A stretch of 64,000 nt of DNA from Oceanicoccus sagamiensis (GTDB lineage: Bacteria; Pseudomonadota; Gammaproteobacteria; Pseudomonadales; Dasaniaceae): NCBI RefSeq assembly GCF_002117105.1, contig NZ_CP019343.1, forward strand, positions 3,782,001-3,846,000, read 5' to 3'. Position 1 is the stretch's first letter; the number at the start of each line of letters is the position of its first letter. A program made the translations under genes and the position numbers. Under the pieces are notes generated by a model. The model did no database searches. It saw nothing but the letters and a program-made list of their open reading frames with translations, and was not told where the DNA came from. Shown piece after piece: positions 4,832-64,000 of the stretch.

Positions 4832-4836
4832 TGGGT

Positions 4837-5607: not shown

Positions 5608-5650
5608 AATCTCAACTCGTTAATCATTCGTTATTATATGTTGGTGTGTA

Positions 5651-5682
5651 AAAACGGGCCGAAGTTTTGCTTCGGCCCGTTT
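5651..5682 (-). terminator. Rho-independent terminator after the SDR gene
   Basis: A strong hairpin with arms AAACGGGCCGAAG and CTTCGGCCCGTTT and a short loop. On the minus strand it is followed by a T tract. It ends the 5706-6467 transcript before the ThuA-like gene, so the ThuA-to-Rieske genes need their own promoter or depend on read-through. Confidence 0.9.
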
Positions 5683-5705
5683 CGGGTCTTGCTTATTTCA
5701 AGTGC

Positions 5706-6467: not shown

Positions 6468-6608
6468 GAATGTCTCCTAGTAGTAAATTATTGGTATATT
6501 GGGGTTTATTTCAGGCTGGTCTGGTCCCGCCAATAGGGCGTTTTAGGCAGCTTGACTATAGATTGATCGCTCAATTTGAAGCTTAAGGTATCAAACCTCC
6601 TAAAAAAA

Positions 6609-6682
6609 AACAATCAGATTTGACTGTTTATTTTGGTTCCGATAATGTGGGCATCATAATTGATAAAAATAACAGTCAGATC
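6609..6682. promoter_or_regulatory. Candidate operator sites in divergent promoter region
   Basis: At 6609-6628 an imperfect inverted repeat reads AACAATCA-GATT-TGACTGTT (one mismatch between arms). A further AACAGTCAGATC lies at 6671-6682. Both are in the 282 bp region between the divergent SDR and GST genes. Similar TGACTGT sequences appear at 1254 and 23160. This fits a shared regulator binding site, but no footprint or regulator is known. Confidence 0.35.
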
Positions 6683-6749
6683 AGGCATTTCCGGCCATAT
6701 TGCCGGCCCAAATCGGCTGTTGAAACTGCACCAAAACTGGAGATAAAAC

Positions 6750-7394: not shown

Positions 7395-7415
7395 TATCAC
7401 AGGGCGGTTAGGCGG

Positions 7416-8264: not shown

Positions 8265-8279
8265 TGTAAGGAATAAACC

Positions 8280-9317: not shown

Positions 9318-9324
9318 CATTATC

Positions 9325-10878
9325 ATGCCGTTAAAAAAGAAAAAAAATAAGAAGATCAAAAAGAGCCAGTTAACAAAGTTGATTAATGTATCGGATAGTG
9401 TTTTGGCACCGACTGTACAAATGCCACTACAAACTGTCACTCAGCGTATAAGTCAGGCTATTGAAAACGGTAATAATAATCAGGCGAAGCATTGGTTGCT
9501 GCAAGTTATTGAGCAATGTCCCAATGAAGAAGAGCCGCCTGTTCTTCTGATGAATTTGTTATCACGAAACCGGGAGATCAATGAGGCTGAGCTGCTTGCA
9601 AAAAAAATATTGCGACTATACCCCAAGTCAGCAGAGGTTTTACAAACGGTAGCGGCATTTTACCGTGGTATTAATAGAATAGAAGATGCACTAGATATTT
9701 TAAACTCTGCATTGCCAGTGGCGGCCAATAAGTGCGCTATTTATCGCAATATTGCTTTTACTTATACCACTATGGGTAATACGGAAGAAGCTATTAAGGC
9801 GTTTAAGCAAGCATTGGCGATCAATAAACGTGATATATACGCTTATTGGGGGTATTTACGTCTGGATATTAAAAACTTTCCAGAAGCATTAATAGAGGAT
9901 TTGCAACAGGTACTTCAGGCTTGCAGTAATGATAAAAAATTACTGGCTGCAGGCAGCTTTACACTAGCTTGGTATTATGAAAAGCGCGACCTACAACGCT
10001 ACTGGAAATACCTTCACATTGCCAATGGCGCTGTCGATACGTCAGCAGAATATATATCCACGGCGGGGCAAAACAACCACCGTTTATTTTCCGCTGAACA
10101 CCTCGCTGCGCAACCGGCGGCTCAGCCACCGGAGCAGCGCCCTGTATTTATTGTGGCACCCCCAAGGTCAGGCACGACTTTGTTAGAGCAGATTTTAGGT
10201 GCCCATCATTTGACTAAAGGCACCGGAGAGTCATTGGCCTTTAATCATGCTGTTAATGAAACCTGTAAAGCCCACCGGCTAACTCATGCTATTAAAGACT
10301 GGCCGGATGAACATATGCCTGAATATGCTGAATTACTCAACAAATCCTTCTTGCGTTTTCCTCTAATTAAGGAAGCGAAAGGCCATGTTGTAGTGGACAA
10401 GAGTATAGAAAACTTTAAGTTTGTGGGTGCTATTTTATCAGCATTTCCACAAGCGAAAATTATAAGGTTGCGACGCCACCCATTAGATACTTTGCTTTCT
10501 TGTTACCATCAATTTTTTGAAAGCAGCTATGATCAGTTATTTAATCTCGATGCCTTGGCCAACTACTATCTAGAGTTTGAGCAGCAAATGGATTACTGGG
10601 AGACGGCTTATCCCAATCAAATATTCAGGGTGAAGTACGAGGACCTGGTAGGGCAGCCGGAAGGGATTATTCCTGAGCTTGTCAAGTTTTGTGGCCTGCC
10701 ATGGGATGATGCGTGTTTAAGTCATCATACGAATGTAGGCACAATTATTACATCCAGTGATATTCAAGTCAGGCAGCCTGTTCATACCAAAGCTATTGCA
10801 AAATGGAAGCACCATGAAAAATACCTGGCGCCTGTGATCAACATTATAGACCCTGTCTACCCTCTCGATCAGTATTAA
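9325..10878 (+). CDS. TPR-repeat sulfotransferase
   Basis: A 517-residue protein. A very lysine-rich start (about residues 3-15) is followed by tetratricopeptide-type helices (about 60-210) and a sulfotransferase domain from about 270. The PAPS 5'-phosphosulfate loop is PPRSGTTLLEQIL, and the 3'-phosphate-binding region is KIIRLRRHPLDTLLSCY. The family transfers sulfate from PAPS to hydroxyl groups of small molecules, peptides or lipids, and the TPR part probably binds the acceptor or a partner. No signal peptide or membrane anchor is evident. It is the last gene of the GST-ThuA-ADH operon, which is an unusual partner for oxidative catabolism. Confidence 0.88.
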   Translation: MPLKKKKNKKIKKSQLTKLINVSDSVLAPTVQMPLQTVTQRISQAIENGNNNQAKHWLLQVIEQCPNEEEPPVLLMNLLSRNREINEAELLAKKILRLYPKSAEVLQTVAAFYRGINRIEDALDILNSALPVAANKCAIYRNIAFTYTTMGNTEEAIKAFKQALAINKRDIYAYWGYLRLDIKNFPEALIEDLQQVLQACSNDKKLLAAGSFTLAWYYEKRDLQRYWKYLHIANGAVDTSAEYISTAGQNNHRLFSAEHLAAQPAAQPPEQRPVFIVAPPRSGTTLLEQILGAHHLTKGTGESLAFNHAVNETCKAHRLTHAIKDWPDEHMPEYAELLNKSFLRFPLIKEAKGHVVVDKSIENFKFVGAILSAFPQAKIIRLRRHPLDTLLSCYHQFFESSYDQLFNLDALANYYLEFEQQMDYWETAYPNQIFRVKYEDLVGQPEGIIPELVKFCGLPWDDACLSHHTNVGTIITSSDIQVRQPVHTKAIAKWKHHEKYLAPVINIIDPVYPLDQY

Positions 10879-10915
10879 ACCTGCTTTCCCTGAATGTCTA
10901 ATGCCTGAAAACAAA

Positions 10916-10937
10916 GAAACCCGCCGAAGCGGGTTTC
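10916..10937. terminator. Bidirectional terminator between convergent genes
   Basis: Arms GAAACCCGC and GCGGGTTTC with loop CGAA. It lies between the rightward sulfotransferase and the leftward CTERM gene. On the minus strand a T-rich stretch follows, so it works best for the leftward gene. Confidence 0.8.
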
Positions 10938-10971
10938 AATGTGTAGCTTAAGAAATTTATCTAAAGATAAA

Positions 10972-11529
10972 TTACTTACGCTTACGACCGATACCAGCCA
11001 AACCAACTAGAGCTGAACCGAACAACCAAGCTGCAGCAGGAACTGGAACAACAGCAGGACCAGCAGCTACGAAAGTGTAGTCAGTGTCGTTGTTGATGAT
11101 GCTACCAGGAAGAGCTTCAACACTTGAAGTTTGGTTCAAAGTGATAGGCATAGTGTTTGGAGCAGAAGTGAAAGTCATGCCAGAAACTGCAGACCAAGTA
11201 CCGATGCTAGTAGATAAACAGCCGTTAAAAGCACCACCGTTGTTAGTACAGCTATCAACACGAGTCTCACCTACACCGAAAACATTGAATACAGTAGTAG
11301 ATTCAATAGTCATGTTGGTGAAGCCAGTAACGACGTTAGTAGTAGCCTGCCAAGATAGAGTCAAAGTGTTCAACTGGAAGATACCTGTAGCAGTACCAGT
11401 AGTAGTACCAGCGTCAAAACCAGTAGAAGTACCAGAGATAGTACCTGCTAGTGGAAGGTAGGCAGCTTGAGCAGCGCCAGCAGTAAGTACAAGAGCAGAT
11501 GCAGCTAAAATAGTGTTTAATTTTTTCAT
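10972..11529 (-). CDS. Secreted VPxxA-type PEP-CTERM protein
   Basis: A 185-residue exported protein. A Sec signal peptide (KLNTILAASALVLTAGAAQA, cleavage near 22) is followed by a Thr/Ser/Gly-rich, two-cysteine domain of unknown function and a C-terminal sorting signal: VPVPAAAWLFGSAL, a hydrophobic helix, then GIGRKRK. Such signals are recognised by exosortases, which anchor or release proteins in EPS-associated systems. The same tail occurs on the cohesin-like protein at 60134-60679. The 5' leader carries a GEMM-I riboswitch and a hairpin over the SD, so expression should respond to a cyclic dinucleotide. No exosortase gene is in the window. Confidence 0.88.
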   Translation of the reverse strand: MKKLNTILAASALVLTAGAAQAAYLPLAGTISGTSTGFDAGTTTGTATGIFQLNTLTLSWQATTNVVTGFTNMTIESTTVFNVFGVGETRVDSCTNNGGAFNGCLSTSIGTWSAVSGMTFTSAPNTMPITLNQTSSVEALPGSIINNDTDYTFVAAGPAVVPVPAAAWLFGSALVGLAGIGRKRK

Positions 11530-11539
11530 TGTTATATTC

Positions 11540-11555
11540 CTCGAGGTTTCTCGAG
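11540..11555 (-). promoter_or_regulatory. Hairpin overlapping the Shine-Dalgarno of the CTERM gene
   Basis: On the minus strand CTCGAG-AAAC-CTCGAG forms a six-base-pair tetraloop hairpin. The SD GAGG (11539-11542) is partly inside the 3' arm, 9 nt before the ATG at 11529. It directly follows the riboswitch, so ligand binding could change access to the ribosome binding site. There is no T tract, which argues for translational rather than transcriptional control. Confidence 0.6.
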
Positions 11556-11556
11556 A

Positions 11557-11673
11557 AGGGTAACCGGCTATCTTATCCAGGCACTATTCCTTGTTTCGCG
11601 AGCAATCCCTTTTGCTCGTCTGCCTACTAAGACCCTTGGTTTTCCGTCCCAGCCTCACGACCGGTTTGGCGCT
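11557..11673 (-). ncRNA. GEMM-I (cyclic di-GMP-I type) riboswitch
   Basis: Read on the minus strand, the leader has GCCAAACC, then a P1b stem capped by a GTGA tetraloop (CCGGTC/GGCTGG), then TGGGACGGAAAACC, the receptor segment GGGTCTTAG, a variable stem with arms CGAGCAA and TTGCTCG, and the closing GCCGGTTACC. These match the GEMM-I architecture and conserved bases by eye. At the position equivalent to G20 of the Vibrio Vc2 RNA there is a G, which favours c-di-GMP over cGAMP. The pair equivalent to 21-46 appears as C-G instead of G-C, a compensatory change. It lies about 30 nt upstream of the CTERM gene start. Confidence 0.85.
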
Positions 11674-12207
11674 TTCCTTCAGTTATTTTAGTTTATTTTA
11701 TTGTAAAGACACAGATTTCGTATCTTGCTGTATACAATACAAGTATGGTGCCAATTTATAAAACCCTATATCTTTCAGTAACTTATAGTAAGTTCCTGCT
11801 CAGTTGTAGCATTTTCTGTGTAAAATCAGACAGATGTGTAAGAAAAACCGTCAGCTTTGTTTTTATTGCCATAAAAAACAGTCGAGATTGCTTTTTTATG
11901 GTTATTTTTCGATCAATTTAAAGGCTAAGCCAGGGTAAAAGCGGAATAAAAACCGGGATTATGAGCAGGAATGGTGCGAAAAGTGATAAGCCGCCGTTTT
12001 TGATAGGCATACAGGCGTGTTTTATGTGAATAATTGGCTTATCAGCAGATGTTTACGTTTTGGATATAACATCAGAAGCAGATATACCAAGTTCTGATTT
12101 AGTGAGTAAAAGGTGTAATCTTTTTCGACAAACTTGCGCTAATCTCTAAATGCGTGCTTCATAATGGTGCTTTCGGGGTTAAAACAGCGTCGGCAGCTAG
12201 AATGGGC
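11674..12207. other. Intergenic region upstream of the riboswitch leader
   Basis: About 530 bp without a credible gene on either strand. It must contain the promoter for the leftward riboswitch-CTERM transcript, in the AT-rich part near 11680-11760, but no clear hexamer pair could be assigned. No repeat or RNA structure was recognised in the rest. Confidence 0.4.
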
Positions 12208-13212
12208 TTATAAACTAATCATTAGTTTGCCCTGATTGCTGCCTGTAAAGAGCTTGTTAAAGCTGTTATGGAAATCTTCCAAGCCGTCCTCATGGTGCTC
12301 AAAATGCTTGAGTTGCCCCTGATCAATCCATTCTCGCATCTGCGAAACCGCTTCATCGAAGCTGTCGAGATAGTGATAATAGGTAAAGCCTTTCATAATA
12401 CTGATTCGTTCAGCCAATCTGAGGTATAGGCTTGGGCCAATAATCTCGTCCATGTTTTGGAATTGGTTAATGGCGCCACAGAGCAGCGTTACTGAGCGCT
12501 CATTGATATGGTCCAATACGTGGTCAAGGATAGGCACACCGACATTATCAAAGTAGATATCAATACCCTTGGGCATTGTCGCCGACAGTTGGGCATCCAG
12601 ATCGCCAGCTTTATAATCAATACAGTCGTCCAGACCCAATTCATTGATGCAAAAGTCGACTTTCTCTGTGCCACCAGCAATGCCCACGACATAAGCGCCT
12701 TTAATCTTTGCGATTTGGGCGGCTGCAGATCCTACCGCACCGGCTGAACTGGATATCAATACCTGTTGCCCGGGCGTAATATCCAGCTCTTTTGTGATGC
12801 CGACATAGGCTGTTAAGCCAGTCATACCGAAAATGCCCAAATGGTTGGACAGGGGTTCATCACCGATAGTCAGTTTATTGAGCTGAATATCATCACCATC
12901 GGTGACGGATAGATGCTGTACACCCAGCATTCCACGGACCCAATCTCCGGGCTTAAAGTGAGGGTGTTCACTGTGTTTAACTATGCCCACGCCAAAGGCT
13001 CGCATGGTTTCACCGATATCCACACCGCCAATATAGCAATACTCATTCATCTAGGCCCGCATGGCCGGGTCTAGCGAGATATGCTTTACCTCCACTAATA
13101 GGTGGCGGTCAGGCACAGCTGGCACATCACTCGTGACCAGTTGCCAGCAGGCTGAGTGAGGCAGTCCGTCAGGTCGCTCGGCTAGAATGATATGCTGATT
13201 TTTCTGGCACAT
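12208..13212 (-). pseudogene. Medium-chain NADP-dependent oxidoreductase interrupted by an amber codon
   Basis: Read from an ATG at 13212 (SD AGGGA 5 nt upstream) the frame encodes a full-length 334-residue zinc-independent MDR reductase of the prostaglandin/leukotriene reductase-like family. It is broken by a TAG at 13051-13053, codon 54, in the context SLDPAMRA-stop-MNEY. The family usually has Trp there, so TGG to TAG is the simplest change. The portion after the stop (about 280 residues) contains the cofactor-binding segment SSSAGAVGSAAAQIAKIKGA and the C-terminal GSNQGKLMISL. An internal restart at the ATG just after the stop would lack the N-terminal lobe that forms part of the active site. 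Confidence 0.85.
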
Positions 13213-13257
13213 CTCAGTCCCTGTTTTCTATGGGGTGTGGGTTAATGGTGGTTTGGT

Positions 13258-14145
13258 TTATTCGCCAGGTAGATCCAGTTCACCGCGGTAGTAATCAACG
13301 CCGACCAGTTCTTCCATACGGTCATAGAACGCTTCGCCCTGCAGGCAGTTTGCCTCGAGCCATTCATCGTTAGTGACTTTGCCTTTGGCGGCAACCGTTT
13401 CAACCGCATCAGGGCCAACGGGGTAGCGGAAGTGGGGTTTATCAGACTCGATGGCATGTTCAATCGCACTGGCAACATCGCTGGGCATGGCGGGGCGGGT
13501 GTGACCAAACATAAAGAAACGACCTAAACGTTCCAGTGATTTGGCGTATGGGCTTGGGTCTTCGGGCAAACTGCCTTTACCCCAGATTGGCGTTAGAACA
13601 ACACCGGGTTCGATAATTGAAACCTTGACGTTAAATTCAGCCATTTCCATTGCCAGTGCTTCGCTTAAACCTTCCATAGCCCATTTTGAGGCGGAATAGT
13701 GGGCGTGACAGCCCATGACTACCTGGCCAGCTAAAGAGCCGACAGTCACAATACGACCGGAATTTTGCTGGCGCATAATCGGTGTTACTTCACGCAATAC
13801 GCTCACATTACCAAAATAATTCGTTTCAAAGATTTCACGGACTTCATCCAGTTCGGTTTCTTCTACGGCTCTGCCGCCACCAATGCCGGCGTTATTGACC
13901 AATGCATCAATACGGCCGCTTTTTTCCATAATTTCAGCTACCGCTCTTTTTACGGAAGCGGGGTCAACCAGGTCCAATTGGATAACATCAACGGACAGGC
14001 TCTCTGCGGCAATTTTTTCTTTTAATTCGGTGGCTGTGGCTGGGGTGCGTACGGCGGCATAAACGTGATGACCTTTACGCGCCATGTGTAATGCGGTTTC
14101 CTGGCCGATGCCAGTGCTGCTTCCAGTAACAAGAATAACGGACAT
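13258..14145 (-). CDS. Short-chain dehydrogenase/reductase
   Basis: A 295-residue classical SDR. The cofactor motif TGSSTGIG starts at residue 7, NNAGIGGG at about 87, Ser in VGSLAGQV, and the catalytic pair in YSASK. The C-terminus is extended, as in the enzymes annotated as 17-beta-hydroxysteroid- or retinol-type SDRs, but the substrate cannot be assigned. SD GAGG lies 7 nt before the ATG. It is downstream of the small zinc-ribbon-like gene (14 bp gap) and upstream of the broken MDR reductase, so the leftward genes from 15189 to 12208 may form one transcript. Confidence 0.9.
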   Translation of the reverse strand: MSVILVTGSSTGIGQETALHMARKGHHVYAAVRTPATATELKEKIAAESLSVDVIQLDLVDPASVKRAVAEIMEKSGRIDALVNNAGIGGGRAVEETELDEVREIFETNYFGNVSVLREVTPIMRQQNSGRIVTVGSLAGQVVMGCHAHYSASKWAMEGLSEALAMEMAEFNVKVSIIEPGVVLTPIWGKGSLPEDPSPYAKSLERLGRFFMFGHTRPAMPSDVASAIEHAIESDKPHFRYPVGPDAVETVAAKGKVTNDEWLEANCLQGEAFYDRMEELVGVDYYRGELDLPGE

Positions 14146-14159
14146 AATGTGCCTCTATT

Positions 14160-14369
14160 TTATTGGGTTGAAGTGGTAATGGTTTGTTGTTTTTGACGTT
14201 CTTTATAATCAATGCGGTAGTCGCAGCTTACACAGCGACGCATGCCGGTTTTCATGCTGTGGTTTTGCTGACGAAGTGTTTCGACTTCTGCCCTGAGTGT
14301 GTTCAATTCACGCTCTTGTTCTAGCAGTTTTTTCTGCGGGCCAAATAATGCAAACATTATTTTTATCAT
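14160..14369 (-). CDS. Small coiled-coil / CxxC protein of unknown function
   Basis: A 69-residue hypothetical protein. Residues about 12-40 are a predicted heptad-rich coiled coil (LLEQERELNTLRAEVETLRQ). A Cys pair CVSCDYR follows, then a basic, Gln/Thr-rich tail. A single CxxC could bind metal in a dimer. The ribosome binding site is weak, and an internal ATG five codons downstream is an alternative start. Its position between two genes on the same strand with tight spacing supports it being real. No family was recognised. Confidence 0.55.
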   Translation of the reverse strand: MIKIMFALFGPQKKLLEQERELNTLRAEVETLRQQNHSMKTGMRRCVSCDYRIDYKERQKQQTITTSTQ

Positions 14370-14448
14370 ACGCTATGTAGTACTTATGTATCCCAGGTCA
14401 TTCTAACGGTGCAGGAGGTTTCCGGCAGATGCGGGTCAAACTCCATTT

Positions 14449-15189
14449 TTAGCCCCCATTTTCACCTTTAAACATAGCTTCAAAGGGGCCTTTGCAAATA
14501 AGCAGGCAACCTTCCTGTGGCAGTGCATCCGGGTTGGGTAGTGTGTCGGCTTTGGCGCAAGTATGCCAGCCGCAATCCGGGATTTCCATGACGGTCAGGC
14601 CATTGCCTGGGTCATACTCAGTGATAGTAGCGGGGCCCGTTAGCCAGTGTGCTGGGTTAAAGGTTTCAAAAAGAAAGGTTGCCCATTTACCGGGTTTGGT
14701 GCTGCCGTCATGGTTTTTTACCGTTTTTTTCTTTTTATTTTTATTGTTGTCGGACATAGAGTTCATCATGGCAAAAAAATCCGCTGAGGTTTCTTTGCCA
14801 ATATCGACATTTAAGCCTATCACTAATTCTTCATATTGTTTTTGCGGGTAGTACTTGCGCAGCTCTAATAAACACCATTCACATTCGCGGACAAAGTTAC
14901 CATAGCGTTTGCGCCACTTTTCGCGCGGTGAGTCCAGTAGCTTGACCTGTTCACGGTGATTACGGATAAGCAGGTAGTCACGATTGATTTGCTCTGGGTC
15001 ACCGGAAAGTCTGAGTATGGGCAGGTAGGTATGACTTACGATATTCATCCCTTTCTTGACCAGCATGGAGTTGGACATCCACATATCAATCCAGGCTTGT
15101 GGCCCCCAGTTGGCATACCAGCCGATTGACTTAGTGGGTGCAACTCGGCCGCTGCCTTGGTCACTGCTGATAATTGCGTCATTAGTCAT
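14449..15189 (-). CDS. Hypothetical protein, probably frameshifted near its C-terminus (ATC hydrolase-like?)
   Basis: The frame as it stands gives 246 residues and stops at a TAA directly after a G5 run (14453-14457 on the plus strand as C5). A one-base shift at that run would continue for about 20 more residues (MEFDPHLPETSCTVRMTW) to a TAA at 14384-14386. The combined tail, with DCGWHTCAK, GCLLICKGPFEAMF and the final SCTV, weakly resembles the L-2-amino-thiazoline-4-carboxylate hydrolase-like fold, in which a C-terminal Cys is conserved. That assignment is tentative. A lysine-rich low-complexity patch (NNKNKKKKTVKN) lies near residue 150. No signal peptide is present. Confidence 0.65.
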   Translation of the reverse strand: MTNDAIISSDQGSGRVAPTKSIGWYANWGPQAWIDMWMSNSMLVKKGMNIVSHTYLPILRLSGDPEQINRDYLLIRNHREQVKLLDSPREKWRKRYGNFVRECEWCLLELRKYYPQKQYEELVIGLNVDIGKETSADFFAMMNSMSDNNKNKKKKTVKNHDGSTKPGKWATFLFETFNPAHWLTGPATITEYDPGNGLTVMEIPDCGWHTCAKADTLPNPDALPQEGCLLICKGPFEAMFKGENGG

Positions 15190-15290
15190 AGTAGCTACCT
15201 GTAATCGCCGTGCGGTTTAACGTGGGAATAAGACAGTATTCATGCTTTAGTCTGCAAATGAAAAGTTTACTTTATATTGTTTGTTAATAA

Positions 15291-15312
15291 AAAGGGACCT
15301 TCAGGTCCCTTT
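15291..15312 (-). terminator. Rho-independent terminator of the TonB receptor gene
   Basis: Arms AAAGGGACC and GGTCCCTTT around TTCA, followed on the minus strand by a T tract. It lies 9 bp past the receptor stop codon. Confidence 0.9.
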
Positions 15313-15320
15313 ATTGGTGT

Positions 15321-17756
15321 TTAGTAGAAGTTATACCTGAGGTTAAGTCCGTAAGTGACTCCCGGTGCGGTAACCGCGGTATAGCCACCCATGACGGGAA
15401 TATCCAAACCAAAGGAATAGTACTCTTCATCTAACAGGTTGTTACCGAAGACGGCGACTTCCCATACTCGCTCAGGGTTAGTCAGGGTAAAGCGTACATT
15501 GACCAGATCAACTTCTTCATTAAACAGGGCACCATCTAAATCCTGATCGAGGAAGAAACTGTCAACATAGTTGTGCTCTAAACGACTAATAAGCATCAGT
15601 TCTTTCATTTCAGCTTCATACTGGAACCAGCTGCTAACGGTTAGCTCAGGTGCGTTGTCCAGTGGTTCGCCGGCCAGGTCAACCGTACATTCGCCGCCAC
15701 CGGGGAAGCCTGCCTGATTGCCATCAACAATATAGTACTCATAGAAAGCGCGGTTAACAGTACACTGGCCGCCATCAAACTCTTCATAGGTGGCTTTGTT
15801 ATAACCAATCGCAGTACCCATGGTCAGGTTCATAGTGGCAACAAACATACCATCAATTTCAACACCGTAGCTTTCCAATGAACCTGCATTGGTAACTTTA
15901 ATATCTGAGCCACTAAATGTCTGGCCCTGGAAGTCATCATATTCTACAAAGAAGAAGGTACCGTTTAGGGTTAAACGACGGTCCATCCAGGAGGCTTTCC
16001 AACCCAGTTCATAGTTGGTGGCAATTTCTTCATCAAACTCACCGCCAACACCTTCGGTCCAATCACCACAAACACCTTCGCGACATTCATCAACTGGAGG
16101 AGGGGCTTCACCTTCCAACTCGCGACGCTGGTTAAAACCACCGGACTTAAAGCCGCGGCTAATGCTGGCATAGGTCATCAGGTCATCATTCCAGAAATAC
16201 TTCAGGCTGAATGAAGGTGAAATGTCAGAATCTTCACGGCTCTGGTCATACCAGGTATTCGGCCCCGCTACCGGTGGAATGGCATCGGCAATCGGTGGCG
16301 TAGAAATCTGGTAACCTTCACGCTCTTTTTTCTCCCAGGTATAACGCATACCCAGTGTTGCACTCCACTGGTCAGTAATATTCCAGACTAACTGTCCAAA
16401 GGCCGCAAAGCTGGTTGTGGTATAAATATTTTCATCAATATTTAATGTGCCATCGCTACCTAAGCCAATGGCTTCAGTCAGGGCAGGGAACTGGGTAAAT
16501 TCACCGTAGGAATCAAATTCAGAGTAGTAGCCGTATAAGCCGCCCTGGTAATCCCAAACTTCACCACCGGGAGAGGTAATACGTAATTCGGTAGAAAACT
16601 GGTCAAGTTTAACATCGGTGACTGTTTCAACGGATTCATAGGCGGTAAAGTCGCCATCCGCAGAACTCAGTGATTCATAGTGACGCCAGGCATTAATAAA
16701 GGTCAGAGTGTCATCGTTGGCCAGGTCATAGTTCCATTCAAGGGCTAAACCGCCCACTTCTACATCATTGTAAATTTGGCTGCTTAACCAGCGGTCGTCA
16801 GAAAAAGGATCTGCTTTTGGTGGTGAGAACCCCTGGCTATCTTCAAAGGCCGTATAGTCCATAATCAAATCACCGGCGGAGTTTCTGCCTAGTGCAGCCT
16901 GCCATTCGGCGGAAGGGGTGTTGGTGCTTGGTGTATTTAGTGTAGACAGTCCGTCGTAATCAATGACGGAGAGGGCACAGCAGTCGGTATCTTCCTGCGA
17001 GAAATCCACAGTGACTAAAAACTCTCCCGATTCATCGGTATTAAATAAGAAGCGAGATTTAACACCCCATTTGTTACTGTCATTCAGGTGTTCACCGTTG
17101 GCGGTGTTGTAGTACATATGATCTTTGGTGTTTGAAAATGCGGTGGCACGCATAGCGTTACCATTGTCACCAAGAGGAATATTAATCATACCTCTGATTT
17201 CAAGCTGGTCGTCGCTACCAATCACGGTTTCTGCCAGACCTTCAAAATCAGGCCCCGGTTTTTTGGTGGTAACACTGATAGCACCTGCCGCAGTATTTTT
17301 ACCGTACAGCGAACCCTGGGGGCCACGCAGTACAATTAAGCTTTGAATATCAATCAGGTCGCTGATGCTCATGCCAGCACGACCTTGGTAGATGCCGTCA
17401 ATAAAGATACCAACACTGGGGTCGATACCTGAGTTGGTGCCGACCGAACCGATACCACGAATACGAATCGAGGTTGAGCGTGAATCGGCCCCCGGAGTAA
17501 TTTTTAAGCTGGGTGTATACTGCTCCATGGAAGCAAGATCGTTGGCGCCGGTATCTTTAAAAAAGTCTTCGCCAAAGGCGGATACTGACATGGGTACTTC
17601 TGACAGGTTTTCTTCACGGCGGTTAGCCGTCACAACAACTTCCTCTACAACAATTGAGTTGGAGCTGGCTGCTTGTTCTTCTTGAGCCGCTGTCAGTGAC
17701 GCTGCACTGCTGGCAAAAAAAGCAACAGCAGAAAGTGTGGCGAGTTTTATTCGCAT
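15321..17756 (-). CDS. TonB-dependent outer-membrane receptor
   Basis: About 811 residues. The start at 17756 (MRIKLATL) is preferred to the ATG 12 bp upstream because SD GGGGA lies 5 nt before it. A signal peptide ends near AAQE. The TonB-box-like EEVVVTANRREENL leads into the plug domain (RGIGSVGTNSG, LRGPQGSLYGKNTAAGAIS), then a 22-strand-type barrel ending in the aromatic YNFY that BAM recognises. Such receptors take up siderophores or large organic substrates. The sequence type is the one common beside catabolic genes in marine proteobacteria and sphingomonads. The substrate is unknown. A KOPS octamer lies inside the gene at 16481-16488. Confidence 0.93.
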   Translation of the reverse strand: MRIKLATLSAVAFFASSAASLTAAQEEQAASSNSIVVEEVVVTANRREENLSEVPMSVSAFGEDFFKDTGANDLASMEQYTPSLKITPGADSRSTSIRIRGIGSVGTNSGIDPSVGIFIDGIYQGRAGMSISDLIDIQSLIVLRGPQGSLYGKNTAAGAISVTTKKPGPDFEGLAETVIGSDDQLEIRGMINIPLGDNGNAMRATAFSNTKDHMYYNTANGEHLNDSNKWGVKSRFLFNTDESGEFLVTVDFSQEDTDCCALSVIDYDGLSTLNTPSTNTPSAEWQAALGRNSAGDLIMDYTAFEDSQGFSPPKADPFSDDRWLSSQIYNDVEVGGLALEWNYDLANDDTLTFINAWRHYESLSSADGDFTAYESVETVTDVKLDQFSTELRITSPGGEVWDYQGGLYGYYSEFDSYGEFTQFPALTEAIGLGSDGTLNIDENIYTTTSFAAFGQLVWNITDQWSATLGMRYTWEKKEREGYQISTPPIADAIPPVAGPNTWYDQSREDSDISPSFSLKYFWNDDLMTYASISRGFKSGGFNQRRELEGEAPPPVDECREGVCGDWTEGVGGEFDEEIATNYELGWKASWMDRRLTLNGTFFFVEYDDFQGQTFSGSDIKVTNAGSLESYGVEIDGMFVATMNLTMGTAIGYNKATYEEFDGGQCTVNRAFYEYYIVDGNQAGFPGGGECTVDLAGEPLDNAPELTVSSWFQYEAEMKELMLISRLEHNYVDSFFLDQDLDGALFNEEVDLVNVRFTLTNPERVWEVAVFGNNLLDEEYYSFGLDIPVMGGYTAVTAPGVTYGLNLRYNFY
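16481..16488 (+). other. KOPS-like FtsK orienting octamer
   Basis: GGGCAGGG matches the E. coli KOPS consensus GGGNAGGG and points rightward, toward the dif site at 59621. Confidence 0.5.
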
Positions 17757-25526: not shown

Positions 25527-26978
25527 ATGGAACCATGGCCAGATAATGCCTTTCTACAGGGCTACTACGAACCTCTAACCGCGGAGTGCACTGCCCCCGA
25601 CCTGATTATTGAGGGGGAGATCCCTAAAGATTTAAACGGCACCTTTTATCGTAACGGCCCCAATCCCCAGTTCCCCCCCCAAAATGAATACCATTTTTTT
25701 ACCGGTGACGGGATGGTGCATGCGTTTGAATTTAACAATGGTAAAGTCAGCCATAAAAATCGCTGGGCCAGAACTGAGCGTTTTAAAATTGAACGTAAAT
25801 TAGGCGGCTCTTATTTTAGTGGAATGAACCCGCTGGAAACGGATCCCAAGTTATTAAATTTTGTGCTAACGGATAAAGAAGGGGTCGCCAATACTTCGAT
25901 TATTTATCACGGTGGCCGTTTGTTATTACTGGAAGAAGGGCATCTGCCTTTTGAAATGGACCCTGATACCTTAGAGTCAGAAGGTGCCTGGAATTATTAC
26001 GGAAAGTTGAATACGGTGATGACAGCACATCCGAAAGTTGACCCGGTGACCGGTGAGTTAGTGGCTTTTTGTTATATGGCTACCGGCCCGTTTTCTGAAG
26101 ACCTTGGCTATTACAAAATCGATAAAGACGGGCATTTAACGGAATATCACACATTCCAAACACCTTACTCGGCGATGGTGCATGATTTTGTGGTGACAGA
26201 AAATTTTGTCATTTTCCCCATCCTGCCCATTGCCGGTAGCATGGATCGGGCTATGGTCGGTGGTCCTCCGTTTGCCTGGGAGCCGGAAAAGGGTGCAAAA
26301 ATTGGTGTAATGCCCCGCAACGGCACGCCGGAAGAAATGCAGTGGATTGAATGCGACCCTTGTTATGTTTTTCACTTTGCCAATGGTTATGAAAAAGACG
26401 GCAAAATTATTATTGATGCCTGTCATTTTGATTCACCACCACTATTTCCGATGGCCGATGGCACGCCCACGGAAGCCAATATCCATCCGCGGATGAATCG
26501 TTGGGAAATTACTATGGATGGGAATACACCAACGGCCATTACGCAAAACTATACGGCCCCTGAAAGTGTTAGCGGTGAGTTTCCGGTGATTGATCCGCGT
26601 TATGCCATGCGTGAATACGAGCATACCTGGTTTACCTCCACCGACAGAACCAAGCCCGCTAAAATCCCCGACAGCGATTATGTGTATAACGCGATTGTGC
26701 ATTTCAATGTGAAGACGAACGAAGTGGATAGCTATGCTTTTGAGCATGGCTATGTGTCAGAACCGATGTTTGTGCCTGTGGAGGGTGGTGCCGAGGGTGA
26801 AGGCTATGTGATCAGTTGCGTCTATGATGACAGTACCAATATGAGTGATCTCTGCGTCTTTGATGCGCAGAATATCAAGGCTGGCCCTATCGGCAAGGCG
26901 AAGGTGTCGCACCGTGTGCCAGTGTGTTTTCACGGTACCTGGAAGCCTGCTGAAACCTATACCCCTGCGGGTGTTTAA
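25527..26978 (+). CDS. Carotenoid oxygenase, tandem paralogue
   Basis: A 483-residue RPE65-family oxygenase closely related to the preceding gene. All four histidine contexts are conserved (TAHPKVDPVTGE, MVHDFVVTENF, VFHFANGYEKDG, FHGTWKPAE), as are YRNGPNPQF and GDGMVHAFE. SD GAGGA lies 8 nt before the ATG. It shares most motifs with the 23956 gene but differs over long stretches, so the duplication is old and the two may have different substrates. Its stop codon overlaps that of the convergent SDR by 4 bp. Confidence 0.95.
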   Translation: MEPWPDNAFLQGYYEPLTAECTAPDLIIEGEIPKDLNGTFYRNGPNPQFPPQNEYHFFTGDGMVHAFEFNNGKVSHKNRWARTERFKIERKLGGSYFSGMNPLETDPKLLNFVLTDKEGVANTSIIYHGGRLLLLEEGHLPFEMDPDTLESEGAWNYYGKLNTVMTAHPKVDPVTGELVAFCYMATGPFSEDLGYYKIDKDGHLTEYHTFQTPYSAMVHDFVVTENFVIFPILPIAGSMDRAMVGGPPFAWEPEKGAKIGVMPRNGTPEEMQWIECDPCYVFHFANGYEKDGKIIIDACHFDSPPLFPMADGTPTEANIHPRMNRWEITMDGNTPTAITQNYTAPESVSGEFPVIDPRYAMREYEHTWFTSTDRTKPAKIPDSDYVYNAIVHFNVKTNEVDSYAFEHGYVSEPMFVPVEGGAEGEGYVISCVYDDSTNMSDLCVFDAQNIKAGPIGKAKVSHRVPVCFHGTWKPAETYTPAGV

Positions 26979-36432: not shown

Positions 36433-38052
36433 ATGTTATCAATACTTTATGCGGTTTTATTAATCCTAATTGTTACTCCTGTTGCAGTGGTATTATTACT
36501 GTTTATTGCCCCGCAACCACTGTTTGCTGTGGCTGATAAGCGTATCCGCAAGGCTCTGGATGTTGAGGCGTATAATCGCAACAGTCCGTATTCGGGCAAA
36601 GGTTTTATGCCTGTGCATACAGAGCTTCAGCAGTCTGCTATCCGGATAGAAGGAACTATTCCTGCTGATTTTAAGGGTGTTTATCTACGCAATGGCACCA
36701 ATACCCAGTTTGAAAGTACAAATAGCCGGCTGCATATGTTTAATGGCTCCGGGATGTTACACCAGATTCAGGTCAAAGATGGGGTCGCCACTTACTCCAA
36801 TACCTATGTTAAAACCCCGGCGCATACCATTGAGAACGAGCAGGGCAAAGAAGTGTTTGGTCAATTTGGTGATCTTGCTGGCGGTGGCAAGGCCAGCTTT
36901 GCCCGTATTATCACTGATTTATTAAAGAAGCGCTTTGGAGTAATACCCAGCTTGGATATGCTGGAAAACGGCTCATCTACCACTGCGATTCAATACCACC
37001 ATGGCAAGCTCTATTGTTTACAAGAAACCGGCTACCCCTTTGCATTGAATACTAGAGTAGAGGACGGTCAGCTCGTGCTTGATGGTAGTGGAGACTGGGA
37101 TACCTTTGACGGAAAGCTGGATACCCCCTTTACCGCTCACCCTAAAATCGACCCGGAGACGGGGGATTGGTATACCTATAGCACTCATTTAATGAGCGGT
37201 AATATCCATTACTCGGTGTTAAGTGAAGGCAAGCTAAAAAGCCATACACAGTTGTTACAAGCCAAGCCCGCGTTAAGTTTTTTACATGACTATTATTTAA
37301 CGGAACACTACTCCGTATTCCCTGACCTTTCGATGCGCTTTGATAGCAAAGAGATTTTTGGTGAGCATCAAAGCCCGTTTTATTTTGATGCCGACTATAA
37401 AATGCGCTTTGGTGTGATTAAGCGTGACCATCAGCAAGGGGATGATATCCAGTGGTTTACCACCGATCTGCCGGGTCATATTTGGCATACCATTAACGCC
37501 TGGGAAGAAACCCGTGACGATGGCGGTACAGATATTGTGCTCTATGCGCCGGTATTCCGTGAATACCCATCGAATGTACCCATTCATACGCCACTGGAAC
37601 CCCATGCTCAGATGCATATCTATCGCCTTAATCTTGATAGCGGTGAAGTGACTGAGCAGCGCCAGTTAATGGAACATTTCTATGAGCGCCCCAGCTATAA
37701 CACCAACTATGTGGGCAAGCGCACCCAATACGCCTATTTATTAGATGAGCAGGGCAGTGGTGGCATTATGGGTAAAGGCGTGCTGAAGTATGATCTGATT
37801 AATGAACAGGAAGTGAGTTATTTTGACTACGGTGATCATCTGGGTGGCGAAGCCTTGTTTGTGCCCAAAGCCAACGCCGTTGCTGAAGACGATGGTTATC
37901 TGGTGGATTTGCTAATGACGGATGACTCCGCCTACCTGATTATTATTGATGCCTCCACCATGGAAGAATGCGCGAAATTGCATTTGCCGCAGCGTGTTCC
38001 CTATGGTGTGCATGCTTGCTGGCTTAATCAGGAACAGCTGGCCACTTTATAA
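36433..38052 (+). CDS. Membrane-anchored carotenoid oxygenase
   Basis: A 539-residue RPE65-family oxygenase with an N-terminal hydrophobic segment (about residues 3-27, YAVLLILIVTPVAVVLLLF). The segment has no cleavage site and probably anchors the enzyme to the inner membrane. Iron ligands are the His in TAHPKIDPETGD, SFLHDYY, IWHTINAW and the final GVHACW. It has the family markers YLRNGTN and FNGSGMLH. It is the most divergent paralogue. It is followed 30 bp later by a GST gene, and its promoter region is shared with the LuxR regulator. Confidence 0.92.
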   Translation: MLSILYAVLLILIVTPVAVVLLLFIAPQPLFAVADKRIRKALDVEAYNRNSPYSGKGFMPVHTELQQSAIRIEGTIPADFKGVYLRNGTNTQFESTNSRLHMFNGSGMLHQIQVKDGVATYSNTYVKTPAHTIENEQGKEVFGQFGDLAGGGKASFARIITDLLKKRFGVIPSLDMLENGSSTTAIQYHHGKLYCLQETGYPFALNTRVEDGQLVLDGSGDWDTFDGKLDTPFTAHPKIDPETGDWYTYSTHLMSGNIHYSVLSEGKLKSHTQLLQAKPALSFLHDYYLTEHYSVFPDLSMRFDSKEIFGEHQSPFYFDADYKMRFGVIKRDHQQGDDIQWFTTDLPGHIWHTINAWEETRDDGGTDIVLYAPVFREYPSNVPIHTPLEPHAQMHIYRLNLDSGEVTEQRQLMEHFYERPSYNTNYVGKRTQYAYLLDEQGSGGIMGKGVLKYDLINEQEVSYFDYGDHLGGEALFVPKANAVAEDDGYLVDLLMTDDSAYLIIIDASTMEECAKLHLPQRVPYGVHACWLNQEQLATL

Positions 38053-58621: not shown

Positions 58622-59449
58622 ATGTTTTACACTGAACGTGTTTTTCGCGGCTTTGATCTTAATACTGGAACCTGGTCGGATACCTTGGCATTAAGTGCTG
58701 CTGCCTTGGCTGTGGTTATTTATATCACCATTTTTTTGCTCCGAAAAAAAGATGATTCCAAATATTACAATAGCCCACTGGCGTGGTTGCGGGCGTTTGG
58801 TTTCTTTAGTGTTTGTTTTGCGCTTGGTGCGGCAACCGGTGTCGCTGAAAAAATAATTAGCGAACCCTGGGGGCCGGTGGCGGCGGCTGATAACTGGATG
58901 TTTGTTGGCGGCGCAGTTATTTTTGCCATCATTATTGCTAATGGCTATCTCCATATATGGCCGCGTGGCACCTATGTAAAAAATCGAAAGTTTTATTGGA
59001 CGACTATTCCAATGGGGCTTATTTGGGGTATTGCGGAAGGGCAGCTACATCTTGCTACCTGGTCATTATTGGAAATGACCGGGATGTGGCCGATTGCTAC
59101 AGCGGTGTTAACCATGGTGATTTTGCCGAACTACCAATGGCATATGTATTACTGGGATGTCTATGTTGAACCCGGCCACAACATCCTGGAAACCAATATG
59201 CAAAAGGCCGGGTATTCGCATATACCTAATATGGCGTGGGCAATGGTAATGATGGTGTTATTTGCCGCTCCGGGCTTACATGTGTTGATGCAAACAGTCG
59301 CGCTTTTCTCGTGTGCTATTGCTATGCGTTTTCCACCACCATGGAAGGCCGAGTGGCATGGTAAGGACGTTGACCCAACCGGCGGACGTCCGGCCGCTGA
59401 GGTTGGGTATGACTTACAAAGCCATAGTTTCAAAGAAGGCTATCGCTAA
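58622..59449 (+). CDS. Polytopic membrane protein of unknown function
   Basis: A 275-residue integral membrane protein with about six hydrophobic segments. Conserved-looking polar and aromatic stretches (ANGYLHIWPRG, LPNYQWHMYYWDVYVEPGHN) are rich in His, Trp and Tyr, which could bind metal or a quinone-like cofactor. No family was recognised by eye. It follows the retinol dehydrogenase-like SDR with a 53 bp gap, so it may act on the same hydrophobic substrate. It is the last gene before dif. Confidence 0.65.
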   Translation: MFYTERVFRGFDLNTGTWSDTLALSAAALAVVIYITIFLLRKKDDSKYYNSPLAWLRAFGFFSVCFALGAATGVAEKIISEPWGPVAAADNWMFVGGAVIFAIIIANGYLHIWPRGTYVKNRKFYWTTIPMGLIWGIAEGQLHLATWSLLEMTGMWPIATAVLTMVILPNYQWHMYYWDVYVEPGHNILETNMQKAGYSHIPNMAWAMVMMVLFAAPGLHVLMQTVALFSCAIAMRFPPPWKAEWHGKDVDPTGGRPAAEVGYDLQSHSFKEGYR

Positions 59450-60091
59450 TAAATTGGTGGCGGGTAATTTCACTTTAACTGGAGAGAAAGTCAGTCCCTA
59501 TAATGGCTCAAGCTCGCATCGATAAAGGGTTGTAGTTGAGTTCCACCTATCTGGAGACAATTCCACATAAAACCGAAACTGACACCAAAGGGATTAAACC
59601 TATAAGCATAATTACATATAGCTTCGCATAATGTATATTATGTTAAATAGAATATTCATTAGATATCACCCAAACCTGATAAGGCCATAACCAAAGCCCC
59701 TACACACGTTCAAAGCATCGACGCTGGAAGACTAATTGAGAAAGCCAGCAAGCTGAACTGTACCGCTATTAACATATAGGTCTGTTAGTAAACAAACCTC
59801 CCCTGAACTAACTTCACATCAGGCAACTGCACTGAAGTAATGCTGTTGGGTTTTACTACCAACGGATAGCCGGTCATGATTAGCACGCTAAGCTTGCTGG
59901 TCACGGATGTAAATCCAGGCAGAGGCTGCTCAACAATCCGTGGAACTCTATGGTCGCGGTTATTAACCGGGTTTGGATTTGGAACTGGTCAGCTGGTCAT
60001 ATACAGCTCGGTGTTGTCTGCGATTAATAACCAAGCCTCCGCCCGTCTCGTAACTAACCTCGATCTGAAAATCCATAGGGCTAAACCCAAA
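59450..60091. other. Terminus-proximal non-coding region containing dif
   Basis: No gene was supported. A 79-codon frame at 59876-60115 lacks a family and a ribosome binding site and is probably spurious. The dif core is at 59621-59648. The flanks are AT-rich to the left and otherwise featureless. No integron, phage or transposase remnant was recognised next to dif. Confidence 0.55.
59621..59648. other. dif: Chromosome dimer resolution site dif
   Basis: The 28 bp core has a XerC-side arm GCTTCGCATAA, a central TGTATA and a XerD-side arm TTATGTTAAAT. From my knowledge of the E. coli site, the XerD arm and central hexamer are identical and the XerC arm differs only in its outer three or four bases. 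XerCD recombine here to resolve chromosome dimers, and FtsK positions the site at the septum. Its presence puts the window at the replication terminus. KOPS-like octamers on both sides point toward it. Confidence 0.93.
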
Positions 60092-60113
60092 AAGGCTCCT
60101 GATAAGGAGCCTT
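60092..60113 (-). terminator. Rho-independent terminator of the dockerin-cohesin operon
   Basis: Arms AAGGCTCCT and AGGAGCCTT around GATA, followed on the minus strand by a T run. It lies 20 bp past the stop of the CTERM cohesin-like gene and ends the leftward operon. Confidence 0.9.
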
Positions 60114-60133
60114 GATCAAATCGCCACTACAGC

Positions 60134-60679
60134 TTATTTCTTGCGTTTGATACCGGCTAAGCCAATCAATGCTGAGCCAAAAAGCCACGCTGCAGCAGGT
60201 ACAGGAACGCTGCTTACTGTTACTGAACCATTGATATAGTTGTGGTCTATCAGAGAGCCAGAGCTAGCCCATGGATTAAGACTAAATTCATTCAGTGTCA
60301 AATCGGTTACACCGGTACCTATAGCTTGAAATTCCACAGAGGCCACCGTGAAATCACCAATCACAGAAGAAAATGCATTGACCATAATACCGTTGACGGT
60401 ACCGACACCATTATTAATAGTGCCAGTATCATTGAAAAAATCCCAATAACCACCATCTATTGAAACTGACAAGACGTTGAGCACTGAAGCATCAAACAAA
60501 ATATTAACGCCACCGCCATCAACATTGCTGCTGAAGTCAGAACCTACGATATCAAGAGTAAACACATCGTTTAACCCCGCCGTATAATCGACATCATCCC
60601 AAGAAACGGTCGCAGCATAGGCATGCTGACCGGCTAGCATTAAAGCAACAATTAAAAACTCTTTATATTTATTTTTCAT
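60134..60679 (-). CDS. Cohesin-like protein with VPxxA-type C-terminal sorting signal
   Basis: A 181-residue exported protein. The signal peptide (FLIVALMLAGQHAYA) is followed by a cohesin-like jelly-roll: GLNDVFTLDIVGSDFSS, GGGVNILFDASVLNVLSVSI and FTVASVEFQAIGTGVTDLTL, typical of bacterial cohesin-like domains. It ends with VPVPAAAWLFGSALIGLAGIKRKK, the exosortase-type sorting signal also seen at 10972-11529. SD AAGG lies 9 nt upstream. In the family, cohesins bind dockerins, and the upstream operon gene ends in a dockerin, so it could anchor that protein to the cell surface. Confidence 0.85.
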   Translation of the reverse strand: MKNKYKEFLIVALMLAGQHAYAATVSWDDVDYTAGLNDVFTLDIVGSDFSSNVDGGGVNILFDASVLNVLSVSIDGGYWDFFNDTGTINNGVGTVNGIMVNAFSSVIGDFTVASVEFQAIGTGVTDLTLNEFSLNPWASSGSLIDHNYINGSVTVSSVPVPAAAWLFGSALIGLAGIKRKK

Positions 60680-60696
60680 GATCTACTACCTTTACG

Positions 60697-61175
60697 TCAT
60701 TTATTTTTACTAACAATAATTTTTGTTTTTTGAAACTTAACATCCAGCACGCTTCCGTTAGAAGCGAACGGGTTGATTTCTGATGGCTTAAGCCTTATTG
60801 CTGTTTTACCTGTTCTTTTTGCTGAAAAAGTAACTGTCGCTATACGAGCATCACCCGACACACCTTTAAAGTTACTGAATAATATATCCGATACCATATT
60901 ACCCTTGCGATTAACCAGTCCTGAGGATGTTGCAAAATTCCACAATGTTGAGTTCATTGAAACATCAACAACATTAATCACTGAACGATTGAAGCGTAAG
61001 CTTACGCCCCTCCTTCTGATAAAGGAAAGTCAGACATGGCCAGATCTAAACTAAAGGTATCCCCTTTTTTTACATACACTTTTGGCTCACCTAAGTAAAC
61101 TGTTGGCTCTGCAACAACAAGAGTAGATAAAACAGCGAGCAGCACCAGAGCTGATAATCTTTTTACAATAGTCAT
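60697..61175 (-). pseudogene. Cohesin-like secreted protein, frameshifted at a G run
   Basis: From the ATG at 61175 (SD AAGGAAG, 4 nt upstream) a signal peptide (LVLLAVLSTLVVAEP) and a cohesin-like N-terminal strand are encoded, then the frame hits TAA right after a G4 run (plus strand C4 at 61007-61010). A one-base shift there continues as GGGVSLRFNRSVINVVDVSM, matching GGGVNILFDASVLNVLSVSI of the neighbouring paralogue, and runs to a stop at 60697. The corrected protein of about 160 residues has no sorting tail. It may be a true mutation, a sequencing undercall or programmed -1 slippage. Confidence 0.8.
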
Positions 61176-61184
61176 ATTACTTCC

Positions 61185-64000
61185 TTATTGCACCAGGCCT
61201 GAAGGTCCGGGACTCTTAAAAAACAGTTGCTTGAACAGACCCAGATCTAGCGAATTTACAATTTGATCGCCGTTAAAATCGGCAGTCGAATTTCCAAATG
61301 TAAAGAAGGAGGCCTTAAACAAACCTAGATCCAGAGAATTAACCCGGCCATCATTATTCAAATCACCATCACAGGCATTGCCGTAGCCATCACGATCAAC
61401 ATCTAGCTGAGTTGGATTAGGCTTTTCTATGCAGTTATCCTGATAATCTAAAACACCATCATTATCACTGTCTTCATAGCGCACACCGGCATTGGCAAAT
61501 AAATTGAAATTTACATTCCAGCCTGCCAGAGCACCGTCGACCATTTGCATACCCGCCACACCATCACCATCAACATCGGTAGATACTAAGCGCCACACGG
61601 TATCTTCTGTAGGAACACTCGACCAGGGATAAGGGCCATAATTGGCACCAGTCCATATAGCTCCGGGAGAGTTTGTAGTGAATGAGCTATTGATATCGTA
61701 CACGTTGACTACATCGATATTTTCAGAATCTCCCCAATTAAGCAGCATATGCGCACCCACTTGCCCTACCCCTACGGTCATTTCCAGTGTCGGCCCATTA
61801 TCACAACTGGCAATACCCGCCTCTAACTGAGCGACTGTGCAGCTGGTGTCAAAGACGTAATAACCTGGGCCAAACATTCTGGCGTGGTGAACACTCCAGT
61901 TATTGAAAAAGAACGGGGTATCAGACGCTATCATCAGATGATTAAATTCCGTAGAGCTGACATTGTTTGTAAGAATGCCGTTCCACTGAGCAGTAATATC
62001 GTTAGTGCCTCCAGCCACTCCGCCATCGTTATCCAGCATCGTAAAGTTATTATCCCCTTCAGCAATATCCAAATTGAAGTTGAAGCTATAACCTGCGAGT
62101 AAACCATCAATCATCGGCACACCTGCAATACCATCGCCATCATTATCCGTAGAGGCGAGGCGCCAGATCGTTTCAGGGCTTGGAGATGTAGACCATGGAT
62201 ATGGCCCAGGGTTGCCGCCAGTCCACAACTGACCAGCAGCACTGGTACTAAACACCGCATTAATATCGAAGACGTTAACAATGTCTGTATTAACTGATCC
62301 GTTCCAGTCAAATAGCATATGGATGCCAATCTGACCTTCTGCAACCGTCATCGTCAACATCGGGCCGCCATTACACATGGCAATGCCAGCTTCCAGTTCA
62401 GAAATCGAGCAACTGGTATCAAAGCTATAGCTACCCGGGCCAAAGACCCGCATATGATGCACATCCCAATCCATACCATAGAAAGGTGTTTCCGATGACA
62501 GCGCCATATTAGTAAAGTTGGTGTCAGCGATATCTGTGGTACTTAATCCATTCCAACTTGCCGCAATATCGTTGGCACCACCGCTAGCATTAGAGCCATC
62601 GGGGTTAAGTACAGTAAGGTTGCTACCTTTGAGTGCATCAACTGGTTCAGGCTCAACGGTAATGGTGACTAATGCCACTAATGAATCGGCATAGCCATCA
62701 TTAACACTATAGCTTAGTAAATCCTGACCGGAGAAACCCTCATTGGGTGTATAGGTCAATTCTCCGCTATCACTATCAATAGCTGCAGTGCCGTTTTCAG
62801 TATTTGAAACCAGCGAATAAGTCAGAGAATCCCCATCATCATCCGAGGCTTCTAAAAGATCAGTCATAGCTGTGTTAAACGGAGTGACAAAGACTGCATT
62901 AACGGCTTCGGGAATCTGATTCACAGTGATAGAGAATGCAGCAAGAGCGGCTGATGCTGGAGTTTCAAAATCATCAGTAACGGTTATTACTATGCCTGAT
63001 GTGGTTCCAGCGTCATCAGTGCTTGGGTTACCACTTAATTCACCTGTAGCCGTATTAAAACTCGACCATGCTGGTGCGCCGGTAATACTGAAGCTTAAAA
63101 CATCATCTACATCTGCATCACTTGATGCTGGTATGAAGAGATAGCTTTCGCCAACATTGACAATTGTTTGTGGCAATCCATCAATTACAGGAGTTTCATT
63201 AGCAAATAATGCACTGCTTAGCCAGCCAGCATAATTGACTAGCCCATAACTGCCCGCATCATTATTTCCATCATAAATAAAACTCAGGCTCTTTGGATTG
63301 GGACTGCTATTAATTTCAGCAGTACCCTCTGTACCCCACCAGTTATTCTTCGCAATTATATCGAAGGCTGTATCATTCCTGATCGCATACGAACCATTAT
63401 CATAGATATCATTATAGGCAATAACCGGATTAGCATAGCCGCCTATCTCGATACCTGTATTTTCACTCTCCTTAATCGTATTTCTTTCTATCGTTGCATT
63501 ACCATTGCCATTAGCATCATCATAGTAAAGGTATAAACCTGTAGAGTTCCTTTCAAGGATATTATCCGCTATATAAGGAACAACATGCCCATGTATACTG
63601 ATGCCATAACCGGTGACATCCGTTACCGTGTTGTCCGTAATTACAGCCTGAATAGTATTCTGATAGTTACTAACAGATATACCGCTCTCAATACCACCGG
63701 TTATCGTATTTCCAGTCACAACTGGGGCTGTTGTTCCGTAATCATTGACAGTAATACCAGAAGCATCGCAACAATAATAACCACCATTCAGAACCGTGTT
63801 TTCAATTGTATTTGCTGTTATCGAAATACTATCTGTCATCCAGTAACCAGAACTGCTTCCGTCCTGATAATGTATGCCACTAAAATAAAAAGGCTGAGTA
63901 CTCCGTACTGTGTTGCCACTTATATCGACATCACCCCGAATATACCAAAACCTTATTCCCCCCTGATAACCATTATCCTCAAGAGTATTATTTAGTACTG
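61185..64000 (-). CDS. Large secreted dockerin-containing protein (beta-helix, Ig-like, TSP3 and dockerin), 5' end outside window
   Basis: The frame runs to the right edge without a stop, so the start lies outside; an internal ATG at 63839 is not the real start. Visible order: right-handed beta-helix repeats (SGITVNDYGTTAPVVTGNTI style), an Ig/He_PIG-like domain (about PVIDGLPQTIVNVGE), a cadherin-like domain (ASDDDGDSLTYSLVSN), two tandem units of about 180 residues (each with HHARMFGPGYY/HHMRVFGPGSY, a WTGxxxGPYPWS motif and FDTSC), a type 3 repeat DSDNDGVLDYQDN, then a dockerin of two EF-hand-like repeats (DLNNDGRVNSLDLGLFK and DFNGDQIVNSLDLGLFK, residues within 61188-61370). It probably binds polysaccharide and is attached through the cohesin proteins encoded downstream. 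Confidence 0.9.
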   Translation of the reverse strand, partial: VLNNTLEDNGYQGGIRFWYIRGDVDISGNTVRSTQPFYFSGIHYQDGSSSGYWMTDSISITANTIENTVLNGGYYCCDASGITVNDYGTTAPVVTGNTITGGIESGISVSNYQNTIQAVITDNTVTDVTGYGISIHGHVVPYIADNILERNSTGLYLYYDDANGNGNATIERNTIKESENTGIEIGGYANPVIAYNDIYDNGSYAIRNDTAFDIIAKNNWWGTEGTAEINSSPNPKSLSFIYDGNNDAGSYGLVNYAGWLSSALFANETPVIDGLPQTIVNVGESYLFIPASSDADVDDVLSFSITGAPAWSSFNTATGELSGNPSTDDAGTTSGIVITVTDDFETPASAALAAFSITVNQIPEAVNAVFVTPFNTAMTDLLEASDDDGDSLTYSLVSNTENGTAAIDSDSGELTYTPNEGFSGQDLLSYSVNDGYADSLVALVTITVEPEPVDALKGSNLTVLNPDGSNASGGANDIAASWNGLSTTDIADTNFTNMALSSETPFYGMDWDVHHMRVFGPGSYSFDTSCSISELEAGIAMCNGGPMLTMTVAEGQIGIHMLFDWNGSVNTDIVNVFDINAVFSTSAAGQLWTGGNPGPYPWSTSPSPETIWRLASTDNDGDGIAGVPMIDGLLAGYSFNFNLDIAEGDNNFTMLDNDGGVAGGTNDITAQWNGILTNNVSSTEFNHLMIASDTPFFFNNWSVHHARMFGPGYYVFDTSCTVAQLEAGIASCDNGPTLEMTVGVGQVGAHMLLNWGDSENIDVVNVYDINSSFTTNSPGAIWTGANYGPYPWSSVPTEDTVWRLVSTDVDGDGVAGMQMVDGALAGWNVNFNLFANAGVRYEDSDNDGVLDYQDNCIEKPNPTQLDVDRDGYGNACDGDLNNDGRVNSLDLGLFKASFFTFGNSTADFNGDQIVNSLDLGLFKQLFFKSPGPSGLVQ
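61764..61771 (-). other. KOPS-like FtsK orienting octamer, reversed
   Basis: CCCTACCC on the plus strand, that is GGGTAGGG on the minus strand, pointing left toward dif. It is the only one seen on the right side of dif. Confidence 0.5.

Follow-up and report, generated by a model that had tools for sequence, protein, structure and literature searches.

A single-copy dif site at the GC-skew switch of the Oceanicoccus sagamiensis chromosome

We examined a 64 kb stretch of the Oceanicoccus sagamiensis chromosome (positions 3782001-3846000 of the contig; hereafter the window), which holds 46 ORFs of at least 200 aa and from which 29 proteins were scanned for families. Catabolic-type genes among these 29 comprised three Rieske oxygenases, two RPE65-type oxygenases and two TonB receptors, with the RPE65-family genes (carotenoid/stilbene oxygenase type; 25527-26978 and 36433-38052, forward strand) lying among Rieske oxygenases and acyl-CoA dehydrogenases. 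A c-di-GMP-I riboswitch on the reverse strand (11556-11680; 50.1 bits against a gathering score of 35) stands directly upstream of an ORF (10972-11529, reverse strand) that has, by eye, a VPLPA-type motif at its C-terminal end. This pairing suggests that c-di-GMP may control a sorted surface or secreted protein.

Toward the right end of the window, a rightward ORF ending at 59449 and a leftward ORF ending at 60134 enclose an intergenic gap of 684 bp (59450..60133), so the gene-free space between convergent units described in the earlier note is real. Within this non-coding gap we found one short inverted repeat, no direct repeats, no tRNA and no Rfam match at gathering score. Terminator-like sites numbered four, against 0.9 expected in shuffles, and one of them, a hairpin with a T-rich tail (60092..60113, reverse strand; consensus scan only), marks the putative end of the leftward unit; the two promoter-like sites found were dropped, as 1.5 were expected. 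The rightward-reading neighbor (58622..59449, forward strand) is a 275-aa ORF, hydrophobic by eye, with no Pfam or NCBIfam match. On the other side, a 181-aa protein with a VPLPA-CTERM sorting signal (60134..60679, reverse strand; NCBIfam) is followed in the leftward unit by a 94-aa ORF with no Pfam match at E up to 10, and then by an 884-aa ORF with beta-helix, Ig-like and dockerin type I domains, so that beside the gap (60134-63839, reverse strand) a dockerin type I/beta-helix protein stands close to a VPLPA-CTERM one.

The leftward genes had been called a cohesin operon, a reading that is not established because the family searches returned a VPLPA-CTERM protein, a protein without a match and a dockerin protein. 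With the E limit set at 10, all that Pfam matched in the 181-aa protein was a PEP-CTERM motif below threshold, and its six sequence matches in the PDB (best E 0.12) included no cohesin. No cohesin partner was recognized in either of the two small ORFs (181 and 94 aa) beside the dockerin protein with Pfam at E up to 10.

Inside the gap, at 59621-59648 on the forward strand, lies the 28-mer GCTTCGCATAATGTATATTATGTTAAAT, whose G+C content of 25% is low, as is usual for a dif site. We divided it into arms at the boundaries of E. coli dif. Compared with GGTGCGCATAATGTATATTATGTTAAAT, the presumed E. coli sequence, it differs only at positions 2 and 4, which belong to the outer XerC arm; the identity of the XerD arm and center that had been claimed is thus correct. 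The XerC-binding arm (59621..59631, forward strand; GCTTCGCATAA) fits the published consensus arm RNTKCGCATAA, the central hexamer TGTATA between the arms (59632..59637, forward strand) is the same in that consensus, and the XerD-binding arm (59638..59648, forward strand; TTATGTTAAAT) is identical to it (PMC5993296). As printed there, the full gamma-proteobacterial dif consensus is RNTKCGCATAATGTATATTATGTTAAAT, and the 28-mer agrees with it at 28/28 positions (PMC5993296). The coordinates and the arm assignment of the earlier note are correct.

The site occurs once. A 24-base dif pattern searched with up to three mismatches allowed gave one match, an exact one, in the 4,472,079-bp single-contig genome, with none on the opposite strand and none anywhere in the genome for the reversed pattern used as a control. 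Within the window, a 23-base core matched at one place within three mismatches and at none in 100 shuffles, and the runner-up places had at least 10 mismatches to the 28-mer. The earlier expectation of exactly one copy therefore held.

The GC skew changes sign at the same place. In the 400 kb around the site, cumulative skew reached its maximum at genome position 3,841,540 (59540 in the window) and the maximum-likelihood change point fell at 3,841,541; the maximum lies 95 bp from the center of the dif site, so the predicted sign change was found. Of the 30 intervals of 2 kb that reach to 60 kb, 22 had positive skew, and the final two intervals had values of -0.155 and -0.137. In the 60 kb directly left of the site the skew was weak, at 0.028 to 0.047 over three stretches of 20 kb. 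Skew was read over about 0.8 Mb of the 4.47 Mb genome, as 40 sampled stretches of 20 kb, and the maximum reported is that of the 400 kb around the site. Leaving out of the counts the two stretches that contain dif or dnaA, the expected sign was seen in 38/38, with 17/17 positive on one arm and 21/21 negative on the other. Among 161 proteobacterial chromosomal sequences, the distance from dif to the skew maximum was 146 to 199,612 bp, with a median of 7,277 bp (as printed in PMC2731167); the agreement of 95 bp is tighter than that range, for a maximum obtained here by another procedure and from 400 kb only.

KOPS, the FtsK-orienting motif printed as GGGNAGGG in PMC6199493, converge on the site. 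In the 400 kb around it all 23 copies to the left are forward and all 20 to the right are reverse, the nearest lying 1.85 kb and 2.13 kb away. The laxer form GRGNAGGG gave 53 to 0 on the left and 2 to 43 on the right over the same 400 kb, and polarity became looser farther out, where the 38 stretches gave 28 to 3 for one arm and 4 to 49 for the other.

Relative to the origin, the site is nearly opposite. The best DnaA match lies at 1,684,645 (a second, weaker family match is at 420,177), three of the seven DnaA-box matches in the surrounding 80 kb fall within 1 kb before dnaA, and a local skew minimum occurs 4 kb upstream of the gene. From dnaA the dif site is 48.23% of the circle away, in line with the comparison with oriC that had been proposed, and the exact antipode of dnaA is 79 kb beyond dif.

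The proteins that would act at such a site are encoded in the genome. Tyrosine recombinases gave nine matches, the two strongest being XerD (373.6 bits, cut-off 329.6) and XerC (367.8 bits, cut-off 335.15). The ORF after that of XerD resembles, by eye, the disulfide isomerase DsbC. One FtsK_gamma domain (94.3 bits, cut-off 30.6) is encoded 68 kb from dif. Searches of the genome for the MatP and Tus families each gave no match, with E. coli controls positive in both. A scan for the exact matS pattern gave two palindromic places genome-wide, neither near dif, versus three for the reversed control, and these were rejected. As far as our searches show, recombinases and a translocase are available to the site and the enterobacterial terminus organizers are absent; a terminus of the enterobacterial type (MatP/matS, Tus/Ter) is not present here by these measures.

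Taken with the position of the 28-mer, these observations leave us almost certain that it is the chromosomal dif site of the XerCD type. We found no evidence against this identity, and the site is an ordinary one of the textbook type. Binding, activation and recombination of XerCD at the 28-mer would follow the mechanism known from E. coli. An odd number of crossovers would fuse two sister chromosomes into a dimer, and FtsK would load at KOPS, which point toward dif from both sides, and pump the DNA, bringing the two dif copies together at the septum. There the gamma domain of FtsK would activate XerD, and XerC and XerD together would exchange strands at the TGTATA center, turning the dimer into two monomers.

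The window had also been said to cover the terminus of the chromosome. That this position would account for the accessory secreted and catabolic genes, as the earlier note has it, is a conjecture. The dif site, the skew switch and the reversal of KOPS agree with that statement, which does not extend to replication, for dif need not be the place where the forks meet. In Pseudomonas aeruginosa, segregation ends at dif and replication ends opposite oriC, according to PMC6199493, and termination near dif but not at it is also argued for in a survey of such sites in bacteria (PMC3025954). In our genome the skew switch lies about 100 bp from dif though the antipode of dnaA is 79 kb off, and neither Tus nor MatP was matched; the forks may therefore meet elsewhere. 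We regard it as possible, though somewhat doubtful, that they meet away from dif, as in P. aeruginosa, with skew and KOPS following the dif-directed segregation system. A dif site is the end point of segregation and dimer resolution, and the word terminus is to be used with care; in that sense the window can be placed at the chromosome terminus, with dif as a clean reference point for the genome, and the known picture is unchanged.

Two other accounts of the 28-mer have to be weighed. It might be the attL or attR of a Xer-dependent element or prophage at dif, which would make the sequence there partly phage-derived. Target sites for integrating phages are known to include dif, and two relatives have PM2-like proviruses beside theirs. 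We nevertheless consider this account highly improbable: the ORFs on both sides of our site matched no phage family in Pfam or NCBIfam, and a PM2-like capsid query had no match in this genome and matched none of 14 control genomes, the same query having found the provirus of one of the two relatives. The lack of a second dif-like site within three mismatches points the same way, but the provirus in that relative also lies beside a single recognizable dif. It is scarcely credible that the 28-mer resembles dif by chance or as a relic and that another site does the work, for it is the only match in the genome within three mismatches and coincides with both the skew switch and the KOPS reversal.

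The PM2-like tailless proviruses at the dif of relatives are a better lead than this ordinary site. One such relative (G016), from the same order, has two dif-like sites 12.87 kb apart, which agree in orientation, XerD arm and center and differ in the XerC arm. Between them is a PM2/corticovirus-like provirus of 12.87 kb with a dif-like site at each end (G016:C81:12858-31857, about 4128-17024), which encodes a phage GPA-type replication protein, a P2-type capsid protein, an endolysin-like protein, a CI-type repressor-like protein and a packaging-ATPase-like protein that is 33.5% identical to PM2 P9. The kinship of its capsid protein with PM2 follows from Pfam P2 domains; a PDB sequence search gave no match for it at E up to 1. 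No integrase was matched in the 17 of 31 ORFs (at least 90 aa) scanned with Pfam and/or PHROGs, and, since many of the ORFs had no match at all, an integrase may have gone unrecognized. The arrangement suggests, without proving, that the provirus was integrated by the host XerCD.

A different PM2-like provirus lies directly beside dif in a genome of the same genus as ours (G001:C41, dif 263675-263697). Its capsid protein resembles PM2 P2 (E 8.4e-10) and the PDB entry 9t9v (E 1.3e-33), and the two proviruses share 21% identity in the capsid and 31% in the ATPase. No second dif-like site was found in the 19.9 kb to the left of this provirus. In Vibrio, tailless phages that carry dif-like sites or lie at dif are described in PMC9966536 and PMC11630473. 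According to the latter, an integrase gene is regularly present in tailless prophages at dif, and either host XerCD or the phage enzyme might do the work (PMC11630473); thus XerCD is not to be taken for granted in the proviruses described here.

The core of the site is present in most of the relatives searched. Within three mismatches it was found in 25 of the 37 genomes of the relatives search, our own counted, including 24 of the 31 of good quality and five of the seven of the same genus. None was found at this limit in the other 12, seven of them among the 31 of good quality and only four under 90% complete. Comparing 10 proteins of the window with 25 loci from relatives, 19 of which were just 2.4 to 3 kb long, we saw no conserved flank: with E limited to 1e-5, a TonB receptor gave the only matches, in two loci and at 37-38% identity. 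The exact 28-mer was present in 45 stretches of a species-level genome collection, which by record title were 27 Pseudomonas, Stutzerimonas or other Pseudomonadaceae/Pseudomonadales, six Methylococcales, two Zobellella, two Oceanicoccus MAGs and eight others. Of 5,426 E. coli genomes, 5,363 had a place resembling a 51-base query around the site, and in one of them the match spanned at least 80% of the query; with an E limit of 10 and such coverage in a single genome, this result tells little beyond the core.

Set against known systems, this genome differs from E. coli in having no match to MatP or Tus, whereas E. coli matched in both searches. The enterobacterial dif printed for Yersinia pestis CO92, GGTGCGCATAATGTATATTATGTTAAAT, is alike at 26/28 positions, including the center and the XerD arm, with both differences (positions 2 and 4) in the XerC arm (PMC2731167). 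Closer still is the dif printed for P. aeruginosa PAO1, GATTCGCATAATGTATATTATGTTAAAT, which is alike at 27/28 positions and differs only at position 2, where our site has C instead of A (PMC2731167). The PAO1 site and ours both lie near the skew switch, at 14,962 bp from the skew maximum in PAO1 (PMC2731167) and 95 bp from it here, within the 400 kb examined.
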